32,531 bases of DNA from Myxococcales bacterium (GTDB taxonomy: Bacteria; Myxococcota_A; Polyangia; Nannocystales; Nannocystaceae). The stretch covers positions 1-32,531 of the forward strand of contig JAAZXR010000049.1 in the NCBI GenBank assembly GCA_014240065.1, read 5' to 3'. The position numbers and the translations under genes are program-made. Numbering within the stretch: the stretch's first letter is position 1; the number at the start of each line of letters is the position of its first letter. Positions 22,330 to 32,531 of the stretch are shown one piece after another. Below the pieces are notes generated by a model. The model ran no database searches and was not told the origin of the DNA. It saw only the letters and a program-made list of their open reading frames with translations.

Positions 22330-23173
22330 CGCGGGGGCGTGGATCGAAGACCGTCGCGCGATGGTGAACAGCGCGCTCACGAAGGCGCTTGAACTCCCCA
22401 GCGAGTCCGACCCTGGCGGGCTACGCGAGGCGATGCGGTACGCCGTGTTGCACGGGGGCAAACGCGTTCGCCCGCTCTTGGTGCTCGCGGCGTGTGAGGC
22501 GGCGGGCGGCACCCCAAAGATGGCGCTCCCCGCATGTTGCGCGTTGGAGATGGTGCACGCGTACTCGCTCGTGCACGACGACCTCCCGGCCATGGATGAC
22601 GACGCGGAGCGCCGCGGCCTCCCTACGGTCCACGTCGAATTTGGTGAGGCCAACGCGATCTTGGTGGGAGACGCGTTGTTGACGGAGGCGTTTCGGGTGC
22701 TCGCTCGCGGCGCGGTCGGAGTGGCACCGGCGGCGATGGCCGAGGCCGTCGTGCGGCTCGCGACACACGCGGGGATCGACGGCATGGTCGGCGGTCAAGC
22801 CCTCGACTTGGCGGCGGGACAAGATCTCGCCGACTTGGGGGAGCTCGAGCAGGTCCACGCGCTGAAGACGGGCGCTCTGTACGCTGCGGCGGGCGCGTTG
22901 GGGGCCTTGTGTGCGGGAGCGCCGACGGAGCAGGTGGCGCAACTTGAGGAGTTTGGGATGTCATTCGGAGTGGGCTTTCAGCACGCGGATGACGTCCTCG
23001 ACGATGATCAGCCCAAACTTCGCGCCCAGGCGAAGGAGCGGATGGAGATTTTGCTCGCGACCTGTGAGCAGATCACCGACACCTTCGGCGACCGGGGGGA
23101 GCCCCTGCGCGGCCTCACGGGTTGGCTCCGAGCGCGCGCACGGGATGCCGCCGCTGGCGCTCGATTCGAGTGA
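22322..23173 (+). CDS. ispA: Farnesyl diphosphate synthase-type prenyltransferase (IspA), short C-terminal half
   Basis: This makes prenyl diphosphates (normally C15 FPP) from IPP and DMAPP. The 283-residue protein shows GGKRVRP (45-51), the first Asp motif DDLPAMDDD (86-94) in the context YSLVHDDLPAMDDD with the two-residue insertion of bacterial FPP synthases, FGEANAILVGDALLTEAF, KTGAL (182-186) and the second Asp motif DDVLDD (223-228). After the second motif the usual 30-or-so residues with GDxxxxGK-x-TYP are missing: DDVLDD runs straight into QPKLRAQAKERM. This may affect IPP binding or product length. ATG 22322 overlaps xseB. Dxs, often next in this operon, is absent here. Confidence 0.88.
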   Translation: MSDAGAWIEDRRAMVNSALTKALELPSESDPGGLREAMRYAVLHGGKRVRPLLVLAACEAAGGTPKMALPACCALEMVHAYSLVHDDLPAMDDDAERRGLPTVHVEFGEANAILVGDALLTEAFRVLARGAVGVAPAAMAEAVVRLATHAGIDGMVGGQALDLAAGQDLADLGELEQVHALKTGALYAAAGALGALCAGAPTEQVAQLEEFGMSFGVGFQHADDVLDDDQPKLRAQAKERMEILLATCEQITDTFGDRGEPLRGLTGWLRARARDAAAGARFE

Positions 23174-23276
23174 AGACGCTCCCTGGAGTGGAATTGGACC
23201 AGGCGCCGGCGGTCGGTGCCCCGGCTCGTCGCTAAAAAATGCAACGAGGTTGCGAGGTTGGAGCGTGGCCCATACC

Positions 23277-24194
23277 ATGAGGAGCGTGCTGTCGTTTGGG
23301 AGAAAAAAACGCGTCGACTCAAAGACGCCAGAGACACCACAAGATGCGTACGTCGTGGTGTTGGCGGGTGATCGCATGGGCGAGACGTTCCGGATAGCGC
23401 CCGGTCAGACGGCCATCGGCCGCGGGATCCAGTCGGGGGTCCGTATCAACGACGACGGGATCTCACGGGTGCACGCGTATGTCGACAGCGACGGGCGACA
23501 GTATGTGCTCCGCGACGCGGGGTCGACCAACGGCACCTACGCCAACGGCGCTCAGGTGGAGAGCCACACCTTGTCCGACGGCGACAAAATACAGATCGGC
23601 TCGACGAGCGTCCTGCAATTTACCTTTGACCAAGACGTGCGCGCGCCCGCAGACGACAACCTCTACGGTGAGGCCAGCAAGGATCGCCTCACGGGGCTGT
23701 TTAACCGCGCATACTTCGAGAACCGGCTGGAGAGCGACGTGGCGTTCGCGTTGCGCCACGGAAAGGCGCTGGCGGTGATCTCCTTCAATCTCGACAACTT
23801 CCGGCAAGTGAATGACGCCCACGGCGTGGCGGTGGGAGACACCATCTTGCGTGATGTGGCGAACCGAGTGCGCGGCACGATCCGAGGAGAGGATATCTTC
23901 GCTCGCGTGGGTGGTGAAGACTTCGTGGTCATCTGCAGAGACGTGGACGCGACGCGGGCGGCGAACGCGGCGCAGCGTATCCGCGGGCTCATCGGGGAGA
24001 AGCCGTTCAGCATTGGGGGAGAGGGGCTCGCAGTCACCATCTCTCTCGGCGTCGCCGACCTCGGGATGCTGCCCTCGCCGAGCGGCGAGGCGCTGTACAT
24101 CGCGAGCGAGCGGGCGCTGGCCTCCGCAAAGACACAAGGGCGCAACCTCGCGTGCGTCTACGACCCTCAAGGCCAGCCAACCCGCCTCGTGTGA
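23277..24194 (+). CDS. FHA-GGDEF protein with degenerate catalytic motifs and intact I-site
   Basis: The 305-residue protein has an N-terminal FHA domain (VVLAGDRMGETFRIAPG; GRG 48-50; ISRVHA 62-67; STNGT 83-87), which binds phosphothreonine. A GGDEF domain starts with DRLTGLFNRAYF (136-147). The metal-binding part of the family, DxDxFKxxND, reads NLDNFRQVND (N171 replaces the first Asp). The signature reads GGEDF (212-216) instead of GGD/EEF. An allosteric I-site RxxD is present at 203-206 (RGED), five residues before GGEDF. This suggests c-di-GMP binding rather than synthesis. ATG 23277 is the best start. FHA-GGDEF proteins are known in Bdellovibrio (DgcB), where they are enzymes. Confidence 0.9.
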   Translation: MRSVLSFGRKKRVDSKTPETPQDAYVVVLAGDRMGETFRIAPGQTAIGRGIQSGVRINDDGISRVHAYVDSDGRQYVLRDAGSTNGTYANGAQVESHTLSDGDKIQIGSTSVLQFTFDQDVRAPADDNLYGEASKDRLTGLFNRAYFENRLESDVAFALRHGKALAVISFNLDNFRQVNDAHGVAVGDTILRDVANRVRGTIRGEDIFARVGGEDFVVICRDVDATRAANAAQRIRGLIGEKPFSIGGEGLAVTISLGVADLGMLPSPSGEALYIASERALASAKTQGRNLACVYDPQGQPTRLV

Positions 24195-26632
24195 TCGCAC
24201 CGTTGCCCGTTTTTCTCACCTCGCCGCGCCGCCCGCTCTCTGCCAAACGCCGAGGGTTCAAGAGCGGGCTCGCGCGCATGGTGAGCGGCGGCGTCGTGAC
24301 GCTGTCCTTGGGGGCGGGCTGCGAGCAAAAACCCGCTGTGTCGCTGCATCAAGGGACGGTGTCGAACGCCGACCTCGACCCCGCGGCTGAAGATCCTGGC
24401 AAGATCGAGGAGCTCTCGTCGCGTCCCGGGGAGTGGTTCGAGGACAGCCGCGGGGTGCAGGTCATCCGCGCTCGTCAACGTGGAGACAGCGCCGCGGCGA
24501 CGTCGGTGCTTCGCGAGATGTTGTCCTCTCCCGAGCTGTCCGCGCACGACCGCGCGGGCGCGCTCGTGTTGCTTGGGCGGGAGGCGATGGCGGCCGGGCG
24601 TTACGAAGAGGCGTCCACGTCATTTCAAGGCGCGGCCGCCTCGGAGGAGCTCAAGGCTGTTCGTTCAAGCCTCATCCTCTGGCAAGCGGACGCCGCGCTG
24701 CGCGGCGCCCAGCCGGAGAAAGCGAGGGCTGTGCTCGCGGAGGTCGCCGAGGTCGGGCTCACGCCGCCCCAAGCGTCGGAGCGCAGCCTGCTCTGGATGC
24801 GGGCCATGCAGCGGGCGGGGACCGAGGAGGAGGCGCGCGCCGCTCTCGAGCGCTTCATCGAACGGTATCCTGATCACGAGGCGAGGTTCGAGGCGCGGGA
24901 TGCACTGGCCGCCCGCTATGAGTCGAGCGACCCGGCGCGCGCCCGCGCGCTGTTCGAGAGCGTGGCGCTGGCGGTGCCGTTGAGCAGCTTCGCCGAGCGC
25001 GCCCGCGCCGGCTTGAAACGCCTCCAAAAGCGCCCAAAGGCCCGCCCTCCGGCGGCGGAGCGCAGGGCGTTTGAGCGAGAGATGAAGGTGGCGACCTTGG
25101 AGTCGGAGCTTTCCCGTCGGCGATATCGGCGCGTGGTGGAGGGATCCAAGCCCTTGCTCGAGAGCAAGAATTTGTCGAGACCGCAGCGGTGTCGAGTGGC
25201 GTACGCCAAGGCGAAGGCCATCTTCCGCCAGCGCAAGCGCGCCAAGGCGCGGGTTCCCTTCGACACCGCCGGGGTGGCGTGCGAGGCGGCCGGTGAGTGG
25301 AACCTGGTCGTCAAATCGCGGTACCAATCTGCGCGAGGGAGGTACGCCGCCGGAGAGTACGCGAAGGCGGCCGAGGCGTTTGAGGCGCTCGCCGCAGCCT
25401 TCCCTGAGCACTCCTACGCCGACGACGCCCTGTTGCTCGTTGGAGAGTCGTGGGTTTCGGCCAAAGAGACGCCTCGCGCCGAGGAGGCCTGGCGTCGGGC
25501 CATTACCCGTTATCCAGAAGGAGACATGCACGCGGAGCTCCAGCGGCGGCTGGTGCTCTCGGCGTTCACCACGGACGCTCCAGAGAGGGTGTTGCAAGTG
25601 GTGGAGGCCGCGCTCCCCGGGGCGAAGCCCGGAGCGCCAGCGACCGCGAAGCTGCACTACTTCAACGCGCGGGCGCTCGAGCTCCTCGGGCGCGACGAGG
25701 AGGCGCTCACCTCCTATTTCGCGGCCATCGACGCGGCGCCGATGTCGTATCCCTCGGCGCTCGCGCTCTCGCGGTTGCGAGAGCGGGGGCCCGAACCACT
25801 CGCGCGGGGACTGGCGCGACTTGAGGGCTCGCGCATCCAGCGGGCTCCGGGCGGGGGTGAGCGGTCGTCTCCCGCCGCTCCTCCGACGGCTGAAATTCCT
25901 GAGCGAGCGCAGGTGTTCGCCGCGCTCGGGTTGGGCGACGAGACCCTCGAGGCGCTTGAGCAGGCTGGCGTCGCCGGTTGGAGCAAGGCGCTGCTGCTGG
26001 CGCGCGCCGGGATGTATCGCGCGTCCCAGCGAACCCTCGCGTCGCTCGACCCGCAGTGGCGCGCCACCCCTCCTCGAGCGTCGGACAGCGAGCGATGGTC
26101 GGTCGCGCATCCGCGCCCGTTCCGCGACATCATCGAAGATGGAGAGTCGCGCGTCGCTGTCGCCCCATTTTTGGCCTACGCCGTGATGCAGACCGAGTCT
26201 CGCTTTGACCCCGGCGCCGTGTCGTGGGCCGGCGCTCGAGGGCTCGTGCAGCTGATGCCTGCGACCGCGAAGGACCTGGCGGCGCGGGCCAAAATTACGC
26301 TCGGGCCCGGCGACGTCCACGATCCGTCGATCAACTTGGAGCTGGGCATGCGGTATCTCGCCCGACTCACCGCTCGCTTCGGCGGTGGAAGGGGTGCCGA
26401 GGCGCTCGCTGTCCCGAGCTACAACGCGGGGGCGGGCGCGGTGGACCGCTGGATCAAGGAGCGAGGGGACTGGGAGTTCGACTTGTTCATTGAGGCGATC
26501 CCGTTCGACGAGACGCGAAAGTACGTGCAGTCTGTGCTCGGCAGGTGGATGGCCTATCGGTGGCTGTACGCCGAGGGGTCCCCGGAATCAAAGATCCCGT
26601 TCTTACCTCGGCGCCTGCCTTCGAAGCCGTAG
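24191..26632 (+). CDS. Slt-type lytic transglycosylase lipoprotein with TPR-like N-terminal region
   Basis: GTG 24191 overlaps the TGA of the FHA-GGDEF gene (GTGA). The 813-residue protein has a long basic n-region (RRPLSAKRRGFKSGLAR), a hydrophobic stretch and the lipobox SLGAGC. About 550 residues of Ala-rich helical, tetratricopeptide-like repeats follow (for example GRYEEASTSFQGAA and GEYAKAAEAFEALAAAFPEHSYADDALLLVG). At about 650-790 sits an SLT domain: AVMQTESRFDP with catalytic E669, GARGLVQLMPATA, NLELGMRYLARL, SYNAGAGAVDRW, ETRKYVQSVLGRW. These enzymes cut the MurNAc-GlcNAc bond and leave 1,6-anhydro-MurNAc. The alternative ATG 24278 would leave no charged n-region. Coupling to the FHA-GGDEF gene points to linked control of wall remodelling. 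Confidence 0.9.
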   Translation: MIAPLPVFLTSPRRPLSAKRRGFKSGLARMVSGGVVTLSLGAGCEQKPAVSLHQGTVSNADLDPAAEDPGKIEELSSRPGEWFEDSRGVQVIRARQRGDSAAATSVLREMLSSPELSAHDRAGALVLLGREAMAAGRYEEASTSFQGAAASEELKAVRSSLILWQADAALRGAQPEKARAVLAEVAEVGLTPPQASERSLLWMRAMQRAGTEEEARAALERFIERYPDHEARFEARDALAARYESSDPARARALFESVALAVPLSSFAERARAGLKRLQKRPKARPPAAERRAFEREMKVATLESELSRRRYRRVVEGSKPLLESKNLSRPQRCRVAYAKAKAIFRQRKRAKARVPFDTAGVACEAAGEWNLVVKSRYQSARGRYAAGEYAKAAEAFEALAAAFPEHSYADDALLLVGESWVSAKETPRAEEAWRRAITRYPEGDMHAELQRRLVLSAFTTDAPERVLQVVEAALPGAKPGAPATAKLHYFNARALELLGRDEEALTSYFAAIDAAPMSYPSALALSRLRERGPEPLARGLARLEGSRIQRAPGGGERSSPAAPPTAEIPERAQVFAALGLGDETLEALEQAGVAGWSKALLLARAGMYRASQRTLASLDPQWRATPPRASDSERWSVAHPRPFRDIIEDGESRVAVAPFLAYAVMQTESRFDPGAVSWAGARGLVQLMPATAKDLAARAKITLGPGDVHDPSINLELGMRYLARLTARFGGGRGAEALAVPSYNAGAGAVDRWIKERGDWEFDLFIEAIPFDETRKYVQSVLGRWMAYRWLYAEGSPESKIPFLPRRLPSKP

Positions 26633-26651: not shown

Positions 26652-27476
26652 CTACGCCCGCTCGAGCTTCGACTCCGGGAGCGCGGCTTTTCGTTGTTCG
26701 CGCGAGAGCTTGCGCTCCATGGTGCGGATCTTCGCGGTGAAGAAGGCCTCCGCGCCGGCATAGAGCGAGACAAAGACCCATATGGGGCTGAGGTTCGCGA
26801 GCATGGCGAGGCTCCACACCGCGAAGACCAGCGAGGCGCGAGCGACGTCGCCGTTGAGCAGCTGGCCTGTCCCGGGGAGAAAAAAGCTCAGCAGCCCCGC
26901 GGTGACCGGCAGCCTCGGCTCGTCGAGCTCGCCGCGCTCTTCCAGGGCGAGCTCCTCGTTCTCGTCGTAGATGGCGAGGGCGGTCGGGTGTCCGAGATCG
27001 CGCGCCGCCGATTCGAACATGGATTCGAGCGCCTGCTTGCGCGAGGGTTCGACCTCGTAGCGCTCGAAGGCGTCGGGGACTTCGCGGAGCTCCCCGGCAG
27101 ACACGAGCGCGTCGATGGCCAGCTGGATGTCAGTCATCGGGTGGCCCAGTGACTCTTGGACGAAGTGCGGGGTCACGTAGCTCACCGAAGGGTCGGCGAG
27201 GAGGCCAAGGACCTGCGCGCCGAGGCTCGCGGTGCGCGGGCCCGCCCCCGTGTGCGCGCGCGCGTGACGGTCTCGGGGGGCCGTCGCGTGGGGTGCGTCA
27301 CTGTCCCAGCTCGTCCCTCCACGCCTCGCGTCTTGTGCCTCGGCGGGAGGCGCGGGTGCTCGGTCCTCCGAGGAGGCTCGCGTCGGTCGTTGTCCACTCC
27401 CAGGCATGTCCGCCCGGTGGCGACGGATTCGATAGCGCGCCCGCTGCGCGGCAGACATGGGTTTGTAGCGAGACAT
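26652..27476 (-). CDS. Membrane protein with winged-helix-like middle and TM hairpin, unknown function
   Basis: The 274-residue protein has a basic, Pro/Ala-rich disordered N-terminus (1-82) and a roughly 60-residue middle with QVLGLLADPSVSYVTPHFVQESLG and LAIDALVSAGELREV, a pattern like a winged helix. At about 188-245 a pair of hydrophobic segments opens with VTAGLLSFFLPGTGQLLNGD, resembling TM2-type or small DUF membrane domains with a GxGxxxxG turn. A basic C-terminus follows. ATG 27476 is the only clear start; MSAAQ at 27458 is an alternative. No Shine-Dalgarno is seen. The stop faces the transglycosylase stop at 19 nt. DNA or protein binding by the middle domain is only an inference. 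Confidence 0.7.
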   Translation of the reverse strand: MSRYKPMSAAQRARYRIRRHRADMPGSGQRPTRASSEDRAPAPPAEAQDARRGGTSWDSDAPHATAPRDRHARAHTGAGPRTASLGAQVLGLLADPSVSYVTPHFVQESLGHPMTDIQLAIDALVSAGELREVPDAFERYEVEPSRKQALESMFESAARDLGHPTALAIYDENEELALEERGELDEPRLPVTAGLLSFFLPGTGQLLNGDVARASLVFAVWSLAMLANLSPIWVFVSLYAGAEAFFTAKIRTMERKLSREQRKAALPESKLERA

Positions 27477-27631: not shown

Positions 27632-28462
27632 TCACACCTGAACGCCGAAGTCGCGGAGGGCCTCGTTGAGGCTGGTGCGTTGGTCCGTGCTCTGCTTGCG
27701 CTGCCCGATGATGAGCGCGCACGCTACTTGGTAGTCGCCAGCGGGGAAGGACTTGGTGCGGGTGCCGGGGATGACGACGGATCGGGCGGGGACGCGGCCT
27801 TTGTGGGTTACCGGCTCGGCACCGGAGACGTCGATGATCGGTGTGCTGGCGGTCAACACGACGTTGGCGCCCAGGACCACCTCGGGTTCGAGGTGGACGC
27901 CCTCGACCACGATGGCGCGCGAGCCCACGAAGCACCCATCCTCGATGATGACGGGGGTCGCGCCCGGGGGCTCGAGCACGCCGCCGATGCCGACACCCCC
28001 CGAGAGGTGGACGTCTGCGCCGATCTGCGCGCAGCTTCCCACGGTGGCCCAGGTGTCCACCATGGTGCGTGCGCCCACGTAGGCGCCGATATTGACGTAG
28101 CTGGGCATGAGCACCGCGCCGCGCTCGATGAACGCTCCGCGCCGAGCGACCGCAGGGGGCACGACGCGGACACCCGCGGCCTCAAAGTCTGTCTTGAGGG
28201 GAATCTTGTCGTGGTATTCGTAGGGACCGACCGACGTGGTCTCCATCTTGGCGACGCCGAAGTACAAGAGGATCGCTCGCTTCACCCACGCGTGGACGGA
28301 CCACGGGCCTTCCTCGCTCTGGCTCGCGACTCGCAAGGATCCGGCGTCGAGGCATGCGATGGTCTGTTCGACCGCGCCGCGAGTCTCGGCGTCTTCGAGG
28401 AGGGAGCGATCCGCATACGCAGCGTCGATGCGCGCTTCGAGGTCGGGCGTGGGCGAGGACAT
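27632..28462 (-). CDS. dapD: 2,3,4,5-tetrahydropyridine-2,6-dicarboxylate N-succinyltransferase
   Basis: DapD transfers succinyl from succinyl-CoA to tetrahydrodipicolinate in the succinylase branch of lysine and meso-diaminopimelate synthesis. The 276-residue protein (ATG 28462, AAGAGG close before it) matches DapD length. An N-terminal helical domain (EARIDAAYADR; WSVHAWVKRAILLYF) leads to a left-handed beta-helix of hexapeptide repeats (GAFIERGAVLMPSYVNIGAYVG, MVDTWATVGSCAQIG, SGGVGIGGVLEPPG, IIEDGCFVGSRAIVVEGV). The C-terminal lid includes SVVIPGTRTKSF. It acts in the cytosol and supplies DAP for peptidoglycan. An alternative GTG lies at 28477. Confidence 0.95.
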   Translation of the reverse strand: MSSPTPDLEARIDAAYADRSLLEDAETRGAVEQTIACLDAGSLRVASQSEEGPWSVHAWVKRAILLYFGVAKMETTSVGPYEYHDKIPLKTDFEAAGVRVVPPAVARRGAFIERGAVLMPSYVNIGAYVGARTMVDTWATVGSCAQIGADVHLSGGVGIGGVLEPPGATPVIIEDGCFVGSRAIVVEGVHLEPEVVLGANVVLTASTPIIDVSGAEPVTHKGRVPARSVVIPGTRTKSFPAGDYQVACALIIGQRKQSTDQRTSLNEALRDFGVQV

Positions 28463-28840
28463 GGCCTCTTGTTTCACGAGGTCGAGCGGCGATCAAGCGG
28501 CGGGCCCAGGTCCGGCGGTCGCGGTGGGGTCGGCGCGGTCCTGGCGCTGGTGATGGCGCTGGTGGAGGCTCGATGGGAGCGCTCGTCGGCGCGTGGACGT
28601 GGACGACGGCGTTCGCAACGCCGGACCCGCTCGCGCAGCATGCGGCGAATCGCCGATCGCGAGGCCGAGGTGGAATTGGCAGCGGTGACTAAAAATTATT
28701 TTGAGGTTCGCGCGTTGACCGCGTAGGTACGCTCATTGTGCGCGCATGTGGTCGCAGAACATAGATTGTCACCCTTCGGAATTGGCGGGCGACCTCGGGC
28801 CCACCCTCGCAGGTCGGGCGTGTCTCTCGGCCGGCTAAAT

Positions 28841-28871: not shown

Positions 28872-29085
28872 AGGAGAATTGGCGACAACGGTGGGAAGCT
28901 ACGAAGGGTGGTGGCCTATGGAGTTTAGAGCCGATGCAGTCAGGGTGCGCTCGAATCGCAGACTGCGGATCTGCCTGGGCCGTATGGAGATCGAGGTGGC
29001 CTATCTCGGTGGGGCGGTTTCGCACCGTGGCCCGTCGTGGTCACAGGTCTAGGAAAACTGTGCGGCTGAGAACACCGCCACTTGA

Positions 29086-29090
29086 TGGAG
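29086..29090 (+). promoter_or_regulatory. Ribosome binding site for the NtrC-like gene
   Basis: TGGAG lies 6 nt upstream of ATG 29097 and overlaps the alternative ATG at 29085. The site decides for ATG 29097. Confidence 0.6.
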
Positions 29091-29096
29091 TCCACA

Positions 29097-29990
29097 ATGA
29101 AACCCTCTCCGATGTCTATCCACGATGTGAATCCTGCCAACTCCTACAACGAGTCCATTGCGGAGGCCCGCCTGCGCACGCCGCCGCCCATTTTGATGGG
29201 TCATTCCCCCGCCGCCCGCCGCGTGCAGGCCATGATCCACCGCGCCGTGCGGACCAACCTGCCGGTGCTGGTGGTCGGCAAGTCGGGCACCGGCAAAGAG
29301 GTGGTCGCCCGGGTGCTGCATCACTTTGGCGGTGGAGAGGTCCCGAGCATCGAGGTGGTCTCGGCTTCCGAGCAGACCCGACTGGTGAGCCTCGGCGCCT
29401 TCACCTACGTCTCCAATCTCGAAGACCTCCCCATGGAGGAGCAAGCGCGCCTCCCGGCGCTCACGGGCCTCGGCCGGATCGTGCTTGGCACGCGGCTGTC
29501 CCCCGAGAGTGAGGAGGGCCGACGCCGGCTCCACCCGCAAATTGTCCGTTGGGCCAGCGGCGTCCGCATCGACCTGCCCACGCTCGCCGAGCGCATCGAA
29601 GATCTCGAGGGCCTCGCCATGCAGATCATCACCCGCACCCCGAGCCGACGGCCCGTGGGTGGCATCGCCGACAACGCCCTGGACTGCCTGCGCAGCTACA
29701 CCTGGCCCGGCAACGTGAGTGAGCTCGAGCAGGTCATCGTGCAAGCCGTCCACAACGGCGCCACCGAGCAGATCGAGCTTCGGGACCTCCCGGCGAACCT
29801 GCGGGTCCGCGAGGCGCACCAGGTCCGCGCCGAGTCCCCCGAGCGCCAGCTTTGTCTCGAAGAGGCGGAGAAGCAGGCCATCCGACGCGCGCTGCACTAC
29901 GCCCGCGGTAACAAGCGCAAGGCCGCCCGGCTGCTGCACATCGGCAAGACCACGCTGTACCGCAAGCTCAAAGCCTACGACCTCGAGTAG
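29097..29990 (+). CDS. Degenerate NtrC-like protein: AAA+ remnant with intact Fis-type HTH
   Basis: The 297-residue protein resembles a bacterial enhancer-binding protein that has lost its sigma-54 parts. Present are GHSPAARRVQ (35-44), Walker A GKSGTGKE (61-68), YTWPGNV (201-207) and the C-terminal Fis-type HTH (AIRRALHYARGNKRKAARLLHIGKTTLYRKLK, about 261-292). Missing or changed are the segment with GAFTGA (about 50 residues are absent after PSIEVVSA), the Walker B block usually LFLDE, which reads TYVSNLED (103-110), and the sensor II Arg, since GNVREL reads GNVSEL (206-211). No receiver or FHA domain precedes. It cannot activate sigma-54 polymerase by the classical route; a DNA-binding repressor or architectural role is inferred. 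A strong terminator follows. Confidence 0.8.
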   Translation: MKPSPMSIHDVNPANSYNESIAEARLRTPPPILMGHSPAARRVQAMIHRAVRTNLPVLVVGKSGTGKEVVARVLHHFGGGEVPSIEVVSASEQTRLVSLGAFTYVSNLEDLPMEEQARLPALTGLGRIVLGTRLSPESEEGRRRLHPQIVRWASGVRIDLPTLAERIEDLEGLAMQIITRTPSRRPVGGIADNALDCLRSYTWPGNVSELEQVIVQAVHNGATEQIELRDLPANLRVREAHQVRAESPERQLCLEEAEKQAIRRALHYARGNKRKAARLLHIGKTTLYRKLKAYDLE

Positions 29991-30011
29991 TCGTCATCAC
30001 ACTTCATCACG

Positions 30012-30040
30012 AAGGGCCGCTCCGTCAAGGGCGGCCTTTT
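30012..30040 (+). terminator. Intrinsic terminator of the NtrC-like gene
   Basis: A stem of about nine pairs, GGCCGC (30015-30020) with GCGGCC (30031-30036) extended by A-T and G-U pairs, has a 10-nt loop. It is followed by TTTT at 30037-30040. It lies 22 nt after the stop codon. Confidence 0.85.
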
Positions 30041-30059
30041 GTGTGGTGCGCGCGGCGGG

Positions 30060-32531
30060 CTAGTAGGGGCTGTAGATGAGGTAGGTCGCGCCGGCCTGAG
30101 TACCTTCACCCCATGAACTGATCAACAGATCCATCTTCCCATCGAGGTCCATGTCGCCCGCCGCCGACACCCGGCGGCCCGCATACGCGTTATCGCTGTC
30201 GCCCAAGAAGGCCGCGTCTGTCATGGCGCCGGTGTCGAAGGTGGCCCCGGGGTTGCTCCCCACCCCGGGAGTCTCGCTCATGATGGTGCTCCCCAAGAAG
30301 AGGTAGACTTTCCCACCGTTGGAGGAGCCCTGATCGTTGCCCGATGCACCGAGAAGCACGTCCGCCCGGCCGTCCCCGTCGACGTCACCCGGGATGGACA
30401 CGTCGCGGCCAAGCGTGTCCCCTACGGCTTCTGGGAGGAACGCATAGGAGGCTTGCGTTCCGAGGTTGAAGGTGGCGTCGGGGTTGGTTGCCACCCCCGG
30501 TGCCTGGAGTGCGATGGCGCTGCCCAATACGAGGTAGGCCTTGCCGGCGGCGGTGCCACCAGCATCGTCGTGCCACGCCCCGAACAGGAGGTCGGTGCGC
30601 CCGTCGTTGTCCACGTCCCCCGATGCCACCGAGGAGCCGCACTCTGCAATGGCGCTCTCACCGACGAAGGCGTAGGAGGCCTGGGTCCCGAGGTCGAAGG
30701 TGGCGCTCGCGTTGGTGGCGATGCCAGGGGACTCGGCGAGGATGGCGCTCCCGAGCATCACGTACGAGGTGCCTGGAAGTTGCGATGAGTCGTCGACACC
30801 GATGAGTATGTCGTCGTAGACGTCGCCGTCGAGGTTGCCCGCGGACGCGACGGCCCCTCCATTCATCTCGCCAGGTGGACCCACGAAGGCATAGTCGGCG
30901 TGGACGTCGAGATCGAAGCTGGTGCCGAGGGGCTGGGCGGTGATGGTGTCCGCCAAAAACAGGTAGGTTTTCCCGGCGTTCGCGCCGCCCTGATCGTTCC
31001 CGTACGCGCCGATGAGCACGTCGTCCCCGCCGGCGTTGTCCACGTTGCCCGCATAGGACGCACCGTGGCCCGAGTAGTTGTTGCCACCCGCAGAAGCCTG
31101 GAATGTGTAGCTGGCCTCGGTGTGGACGTCGAAGGTGGTTCCCACCGGCTGGGCGGTGATGGTACTCCCGAGCATGAGGTAGGTCGTGCCGGCGTTGTTG
31201 ATTCCGCCGGGATCCGCGAGCTCGGCGGCGAACAGCAGATCGTCTCGACCATCGTCGTCCACGTCACCTGCGGAGGCGATGCTGCCATAGGCGAGGGCGT
31301 CGTTCGCTGCGTTGCCCACAAAGCTGTAGCTGGCTTGGGTCGCAAGATCGAAGGAGGTCCCGGGGGGCTGCGCCGCGATGGCGCTGCCGAGCACCAGGTA
31401 GACCTTGCCTTCGTCCTCGGTCATCGAGAGGTCGCCGTCACTTCCTTCATCGTTGTAGGGGGCGCCGATGAGGATATCGGGGAGATCGTCGTTGTCGACA
31501 TCGCCCGCGGCCGCGATGGTCCAGCCGCTGCGATCATCCGCGTTCTCTCCCACGAATGATGTGCTGCCAAGGGGCCCCGTGTCGCTCGCAACGCATAGGC
31601 TGCAGGTGGAGGTCGGTCCGGTGTCACAAAACTCGCCGCCGGCCACGATGCCGTCGCCGCATGCTTCGGCGATGCAGAGGCTGGGCGTTGTCGGTGGAAC
31701 TTCGGAGCAGACCCAGCCCACGTCGATCGAGCACAAGGTGCAGCCGTCGGTGTCGGTGGCGTTGCCGTCGTCGCAGGCCTCGTCGGTGGCCCTCGCGCCG
31801 TCGCCGCAGGTGCTGGTACAGACGCTTGTCGTGCCGAGTCCGCCGACACAGTCGTACCCAAAGTTCTCGATGCAGCTGTTGGAGCAGCCGTTGGTGTCGT
31901 CGCCATCACCGTCATCGCACGCCTCCTGGGGGTCGCGAATGCCGTCGTCACAGACGCCGCAGTCCGACAGATCCCACTGGCACGTGGCCGGGGTGTTGCA
32001 GATCGCCGTGCCGCTGTCGTAGGAGCTGCCGAGGGAGGCGTTGAGGCTCAGGCACGTGGGCATGCCAGAGGCTCCGTCGCATTCCTCGACCGGCGCGTCC
32101 ACGTTGAAGTCGCCGCAGTAGGGGGCCAAGGCGAGGCAGTCGGAGTTGCAGCCGCCGTAGCTGCCGTCGTTGACGCCGTCGTCGCAGGCCTCGGGACCGT
32201 TGGGGGTCCCGTCGCCGCAATAGGGGCCCAAGACCAGGCAGTCGGGGTTGCAGCCGCCGTAGCTGCCGTCGTTGACGCCGTCGTCGCAGGCCTCGTTGGA
32301 TTGCTCGATGCCGTCGCCGCACGAGCCGGTGACGGAGAGGCAGTCGGCGGCGCAGTAGTCGCCGTCGGCGGTGTTGCCGTCGTCGCAGGCCTCGGAGAGG
32401 CCGTCGACGCCGTCGCCGCAGGTGTTGGCGGTGCAGTTGGCGAGGCAGTCGGAGGCGTTGGTGCCGTTGACGCCCGTGCCGTCGTCGCAGGCCTCGGAGA
32501 GGCCGTCGACGCCGTCGCCGCAGGTGTTGGC
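30060..32531 (-). CDS. Large secreted protein: DUF4215-type Cys repeats plus seven FG-GAP blades (partial, N-terminus beyond the window)
   Basis: The frame is open to the right edge (824 codons visible, including the stop). The upstream part is tandem Cys repeats of the form CGDG-x-EACDDG-x-DGC-x-C, the DUF4215 pattern common in myxobacteria. After about 330 residues there are seven FG-GAP-type repeats of about 70 residues. Each has a SYxFVG opening, AGDVDxDGxxDLLxGA (Ca-binding DxDxDG loop) and a GKxYLxLGS strand, and the last ends IYSPY. Seven blades would close an integrin-alpha-like propeller. The likely role is cell-surface or matrix binding that needs Ca2+. No anchor is seen at the visible C-terminus; the signal peptide lies outside. 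Confidence 0.9.
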   Translation of the reverse strand, partial: ANTCGDGVDGLSEACDDGTGVNGTNASDCLANCTANTCGDGVDGLSEACDDGNTADGDYCAADCLSVTGSCGDGIEQSNEACDDGVNDGSYGGCNPDCLVLGPYCGDGTPNGPEACDDGVNDGSYGGCNSDCLALAPYCGDFNVDAPVEECDGASGMPTCLSLNASLGSSYDSGTAICNTPATCQWDLSDCGVCDDGIRDPQEACDDGDGDDTNGCSNSCIENFGYDCVGGLGTTSVCTSTCGDGARATDEACDDGNATDTDGCTLCSIDVGWVCSEVPPTTPSLCIAEACGDGIVAGGEFCDTGPTSTCSLCVASDTGPLGSTSFVGENADDRSGWTIAAAGDVDNDDLPDILIGAPYNDEGSDGDLSMTEDEGKVYLVLGSAIAAQPPGTSFDLATQASYSFVGNAANDALAYGSIASAGDVDDDGRDDLLFAAELADPGGINNAGTTYLMLGSTITAQPVGTTFDVHTEASYTFQASAGGNNYSGHGASYAGNVDNAGGDDVLIGAYGNDQGGANAGKTYLFLADTITAQPLGTSFDLDVHADYAFVGPPGEMNGGAVASAGNLDGDVYDDILIGVDDSSQLPGTSYVMLGSAILAESPGIATNASATFDLGTQASYAFVGESAIAECGSSVASGDVDNDGRTDLLFGAWHDDAGGTAAGKAYLVLGSAIALQAPGVATNPDATFNLGTQASYAFLPEAVGDTLGRDVSIPGDVDGDGRADVLLGASGNDQGSSNGGKVYLFLGSTIMSETPGVGSNPGATFDTGAMTDAAFLGDSDNAYAGRRVSAAGDMDLDGKMDLLISSWGEGTQAGATYLIYSPY
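32131..32531. repeat. 102-nt period tandem repeats in the DUF4215-type region
   Basis: Near-identical blocks recur every 102 nt. The block at 32375-32429 is identical over 55 nt to 32477-32531. The segment around 32135-32195 matches that around 32237-32297 with one or two changes. Each unit encodes 34 residues with six Cys positions. The array continues past the right edge. Confidence 0.85.

Follow-up and report, generated by a model that had tools for sequence, protein, structure and literature searches.

Locus and conserved gene order

The window, a stretch of 32,531 nucleotides, belongs to a 4.7 Mb genome of the family Nannocystaceae (G000). Near its right end lies a coding sequence of 297 amino acids (29097..29990, + strand) that encodes a pseudo-ATPase relative of sigma-54 enhancer-binding proteins, made of an AAA+ core, a lid and a Fis-type helix-turn-helix (HTH), without a sensory domain. 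The bounds of the open reading frame are exact (ATG at 29097, TAG at 29990). A GGAG ribosome site is found 8 nt 5' of the ATG, and a hairpin followed by a U-rich tail, UUUUGUGU, starts 18 nt past the stop codon (30008..30042, + strand). Detected by folding and pattern scan, this hairpin is stable (minimum free energy −28.2 kcal/mol, z −4.8) and is a probable intrinsic terminator. A previous reading made from the DNA letters alone (hereafter, the sequence-only reading) had described a clean ribosome site and a terminator, and both were recovered. Alignment within the genus delimits an upstream block of about 100 bp (28997..29096, + strand) with 2 differences between the genus's two species, while the DNA farther upstream has diverged; this block, which includes the GGAG, is a probable promoter or leader region.

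The left-hand neighbors are an FHA-GGDEF diguanylate cyclase gene (22911-24194, + strand), which overlaps a gene for a TPR/SLT lytic transglycosylase (slt; 24152-26632, + strand) and forms with it a pair kept in several genera; a gene whose product, of unknown function, has no match in Pfam or NCBIfam (26652-27476, − strand), adjoins dapD in most of the family and shows about 50% identity between genera; and dapD (27632..28477, − strand), a conserved neighbor upstream of the regulator gene that encodes tetrahydrodipicolinate N-succinyltransferase according to profile searches. This order, closed by the regulator gene on the opposite strand, is shared by several genera. The right-hand gene order is not conserved across genera.

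When the regions upstream of the regulator gene were searched for promoters, three genera (g5, g10 and g11; 6 genomes in all) yielded a sigma-70-like element, TTGC-N19-AATAG (TTGCnn-N17-AATAGn), 46-54 bp 5' of the start codon, with a frequency of 0-0.0004 in shuffled sequences. No sigma-70-like promoter was found upstream of the gene in the window's own genus. A sigma-54 promoter driving the gene was rejected, as none of the −24/−12 matches in 15 upstream regions was better than those in shuffles.

Loss of ATPase and sigma-54 determinants

Pfam analysis of the 297-residue protein yielded three consecutive matches: Sigma54_activ_2 (residues 34-163), AAA_lid_14 (165-245) and HTH_8 (254-294). The first 32 residues, ahead of the AAA+ core, have no Pfam match, and AlphaFold confidence (pLDDT) is low over residues 1-17. 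Hence, the lack of a receiver domain previously noticed extends to the lack of any recognizable N-terminal domain. The model, built on a 17-sequence alignment, has a mean pLDDT of 83.6, and its top Foldseek matches are canonical activators (NtrX, ZraR, LuxO, FleQ and NtrC1).

The AAA+ core (residues 33-163; 29193..29585, + strand) is a reduced one. Its Pfam model, PF14532, is matched end to end in 130 residues, compared with 149-171 in most other copies of the genome. Alignment with canonical activators indicated that about 30 residues including GAFTGA (loop L1) are absent, and that the pre-sensor-1 loop L2, about 15 residues long, is likewise deleted. In the AlphaFold model, strands are formed by residues 86-89, 102-106 and 127-132; the second and third strands are separated by 12 residues, and only 3 residues lead from the next helix to the fourth strand. 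Such short spacing agrees with the loss of L1 and L2. The profile search and structure prediction proposed in the sequence-only reading thus coincide in an AAA+, lid and Fis-type HTH fold from which both loops are gone.

The remaining catalytic motifs were then compared. The Walker A motif reads GKSGTGKE (residues 61-68; 29277..29300, + strand). At the Walker B strand (FTYVSNLED, residues 102-110; 29400..29426, + strand), where canonical activators have xLFLDE, the window protein has FTYVS-N, with Ser106-Asn107 in place of Asp-Glu; the strand itself is retained in the model. In the lid (residues 165-245; 29589..29831, + strand), sensor II has the sequence WPGNVSEL where WPGNVREL would be canonical, so that Ser208 occupies the position of the Arg. 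The arginine-finger segment is also altered (LHPQIVRWA versus the canonical FRxDLYYRL); R151, invariant in the 17 members of the family, could fill an arginine-finger position, to judge from the alignment. The Fis-type HTH (residues 253-297; 29853..29987, + strand) is kept. Altogether, L1, L2, the Walker B Asp-Glu pair and the sensor II Arg are absent, and Walker A and the HTH are the hallmarks of enhancer-binding proteins that the window copy preserves. These results bear out what had been read directly from the sequence concerning GAFTGA, Walker B, sensor II and the HTH, as well as the prediction that the protein would be unable to work as a normal sigma-54 activator.

Conservation of the losses across Nannocystaceae

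The gene is present, once per genome, in 17 of 29 Nannocystaceae genomes and in 8 of 12 genera, including Paraliomyxa miuraensis, Enhygromyxa salina and Plesiocystis pacifica. The orthologues show 36-99% identity. None of the 17 has GAFTGA, L2, the Walker B Asp-Glu pair or the sensor II Arg, so that orthologues bearing a complete GAFTGA and Walker B, which according to the sequence-only reading would have revealed a sequencing error or local decay, were looked for and not found. At the Walker B positions, Asp is replaced by S, A or G, and Glu by N, D, P, R or F; the sensor II position is occupied by S, D, T or A in all members. Because the 16 other orthologues share the losses of the window copy, these can be attributed neither to chance nor to sequencing error.

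Walker A has followed a different course. The P-loop glycines (G61, G64 and G66) are invariant, but the surrounding residues vary (GKSGTGKE, GAKGSGKE, GPAGTGKE and GATGTGRE), and the Lys, kept in 14/17, is replaced by Arg in L006 and L010, the two members from genus g8 (Paraliomyxa), and by Thr in the Plesiocystis copy (L017). The motif had been described as intact, which is correct for the window copy but not for the family.

The gene is under purifying selection, with a within-genus Ka/Ks of 0.015 and values of 0.045-0.205 for the other pairs (eight pairs in total), an indication that the gene is functional. Within the genus, the window protein shows 99% identity, compared with 91% for DapD, 91% for the FHA-GGDEF protein and 77% for the transglycosylase.

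To locate the constraint, two canonical activators encoded in the same genomes, each with 12-14 orthologues, were used as a reference. Overall pairwise identity is similar in the window family (79.6%) and in the canonical activators (78.3% and 72.8%). In the HTH, the most conserved part of the window family, pairwise identity reaches 96.0%, versus 88.6% and 82.3%. In both canonical activators, neither the Walker B Asp-Glu pair nor the sensor II Arg varies, and every orthologue has a motif of the GAFTGA type (GAFTGA/GSFTGA or GAFTDA). As read from these alignments, selection in the window family protects DNA binding rather than ATP use. However, constraints imposed by protein-protein contacts could also account for the conservation of the HTH.

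Related proteins without GAFTGA

A contig scan for relatives was seeded by HTH patterns. Among the matches listed, 64 of 68 more distant relatives carried GAFTGA-like motifs. The window genome encodes at least three further activator relatives without GAFTGA. One of them, L116 (G000:C33:55741-56658), keeps LFLDD at Walker B as well as a receiver domain, while L118 (G000:C98:19769-20611) and L122 (G000:C180:119124-119987) lack the Walker B Asp-Glu pair too.

In a class-level search in which the best 10 candidates per genome were scored, a short-form relative that has lost both GAFTGA and Walker B was detected in Polyangia family f11 (G094; L145, 6858-7688). This copy keeps an LFG segment ahead of the deletion and appears to represent an intermediate stage. 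A GAF-domain relative with the same two losses was found in family f12 (G137; L146, 2440-3297).

Outside the Polyangia, an AcoR-like regulator encoded on a Rhodococcus plasmid (WP_326603216.1) shows 32.6% identity over residues 33-297 with no difference in length. It shares with the window protein the trimmed AAA+ core (no GAFTGA, no L2), the loss of the Walker B Asp-Glu pair and the Fis-type HTH; it differs in having 524 residues, a long N-terminal regulatory part and a host belonging to Actinomycetota. Actinomycetota as a group are not known to possess sigma-54. The existence of similar reductions in other Polyangia and in Rhodococcus plasmids indicates that this kind of protein is known and recurrent. 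The novelty here lies in a member that is strongly conserved, has no sensor and is pseudo-enzymatic throughout. No paper on the window protein family was found in the open-access literature.

Other database resemblances are partial. The short AAA+ form of PF14532, exemplified by PDB 3n70 ('Transport activator'), is matched over the entire domain. The NCBIfam model for PgtA (NF047793) aligns in one stretch (residues 33-297) with 52.2 bits, far below the equivalog cut-off of 650 bits; unlike the window protein, PgtA is a two-component response regulator. Canonical NtrC-type activators such as NtrC1, ZraR and PspF have the same fold and domain order but differ in possessing GAFTGA, L2, the Walker B Asp-Glu pair, sensor II and arginine fingers.

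A probable regulator independent of sigma-54

Since every part needed for the sigma-54 job has been lost, the window protein is most likely an ordinary promoter-bound regulator. Judging from the comparisons above, it is probably a sequence-specific transcription factor that works independently of sigma-54 on a pseudo-ATPase scaffold, an estimate that covers the nucleotide-switched version considered below. "A regulator of another type" had been one of the options in the sequence-only reading; the losses in 17/17 members, the selection detected and the conservation of the HTH now make it the best-supported one. The protein would descend from a sigma-54 enhancer-binding ancestor. Its HTH would bind operator DNA, presumably as a dimer, and the AAA+ core and lid, incapable of ATP hydrolysis or sigma-54 contact, might serve as a scaffold for dimerization or for contact with a protein or ligand. 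It may act at ordinary promoters, presumably of the sigma-70 type, either as a repressor or as a recruiter; candidate sites are its own promoter and those of neighboring genes.

Precedents exist of GAFTGA-less relatives that act at sigma-70 promoters: TyrR, DhaR and HupR (PMC3162934), and the NtrC proteins of R. capsulatus and Caulobacter together with VpsR (PMC10274813). All resemble the window protein in that they combine an AAA+ core, a lid and a Fis-type HTH and have a missing or damaged GAFTGA. The reduction goes further in the window protein than in the TyrR/HupR/VpsR type: L2, the Walker B Asp-Glu pair and the sensor II Arg are missing as well, and it has no sensory domain, whereas those relatives carry an N-terminal regulatory domain.

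One variant is a sigma-70 regulator whose P-loop binds ATP without hydrolysis, binding being the switch that controls oligomerization on DNA. The analogy is R. capsulatus NtrC, in which ATP binding rather than hydrolysis matters, while Caulobacter NtrC needs both (PMC10274813). The invariant glycines and the Lys of most members would permit such a switch, and nucleotide binding, put forward as a possibility in the sequence-only reading, retains some room there. As a family-wide function it is doubtful because the Walker A Lys drifts, and the variable surroundings of the P-loop and the loss of Walker B and of the sensor II Arg also speak against it. We thus regard the switch as unlikely.

A broader role, as a global regulator specific to Nannocystaceae, seems quite unlikely: the protein would either silence sigma-54 promoters by occupying enhancers or behave as a Fis-like architectural factor at many sites. 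If true, it would carry greater weight for these little-studied predatory bacteria.

A competitor at enhancer sites had also been contemplated in the sequence-only reading; such a dominant-negative protein would take the enhancer sites of a canonical activator or enter its rings and thereby block sigma-54 transcription. The window genome encodes a full rpoN (contig C169), canonical activators with GAFTGA and some 16 further AAA+ genes of the activator-like kind. The protein retains the AAA+ fold and a Fis-type HTH whose recognition helix, KTTLYRKL, occurs very commonly. However, the closest paralogous HTH found matches in 24/46 residues and belongs to L116, which itself lacks GAFTGA; hence, no canonical partner with a common site was found. 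Furthermore, the ring-interface elements (arginine-finger segment and Walker B) are altered, and the gene is conserved in a block with dapD rather than adjoining any activator gene. Competition is therefore very unlikely. The presence of rpoN also indicates that the loss of motifs does not simply reflect loss of sigma-54 from the genome. A second, partial match to the sigma-54 DNA-binding domain, with an in-frame TAG, is located at G000:C158:25575-25838.

By analogy with FleQ, which binds c-di-GMP in its ATP pocket via R144, R185 and R334 (PMC10723142), the empty pocket of the window protein might accommodate c-di-GMP. The conserved synteny with the FHA-GGDEF cyclase gene and the presence of Arg at the R185 and R334 positions fit this idea, but AAA+ activators in general often have Arg at those two positions, the window family has other residues in place of R144, and the cyclase gene lies four genes off in a context of its own. 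A c-di-GMP-responsive regulator is thus highly improbable. Finally, a decaying gene or an assembly error, which the joint loss of several motifs might evoke, is refuted by 16 independent orthologues with identical losses and no stops, by the low Ka/Ks and by the conserved synteny, in agreement with the earlier view that the gene is not decayed.

An enhancer-binding-protein fold has therefore been retained under strong selection despite the loss of both sigma-54 contact loops and of the whole ATPase site, in an organism that still has rpoN and canonical activators. Such genes should not be annotated as sigma-54 regulators, and they provide a compact natural test of the role of the AAA+ scaffold without ATP.

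Variation in the neighboring genes

The immediate surroundings of the regulator gene were compared among genera. dapD is its direct divergent neighbor in three genera, namely that of the window, g7 and g8. In g4, g5, g10 and g11, a gene of unknown function sits between both, and in Plesiocystis the regulator gene has been relocated; dapD was thus discarded as a fixed divergent partner. The intervening gene, which is divergent (− strand) and encodes about 250 residues (L102, L101, L027, L029, L022, L024, L023, L030 and L105), has no Pfam match in its L102 copy. It could be a direct target of the regulator. The idea that a canonical activator takes over this locus in genera lacking the gene was also rejected, as the dapD flank of G009 and G013 is occupied by an ABC-F-like ATPase gene.

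Downstream, on the same strand, several genera have a gene for a DUF3516 DEAD-box helicase of about 880-900 residues (L022 11124-13817, L023, L025 and L027). The window genome has no comparable helicase (best match 26%, 30 bits); an operon partnership is therefore not obligate. In the window, the regulator gene is followed by a gene (30060-32531, − strand) for a large protein that combines FG-GAP repeats with Cys-rich repeats of the myxobacterial type; this gene extends beyond the window and, among the genomes compared, is found at that place in the window genus only.
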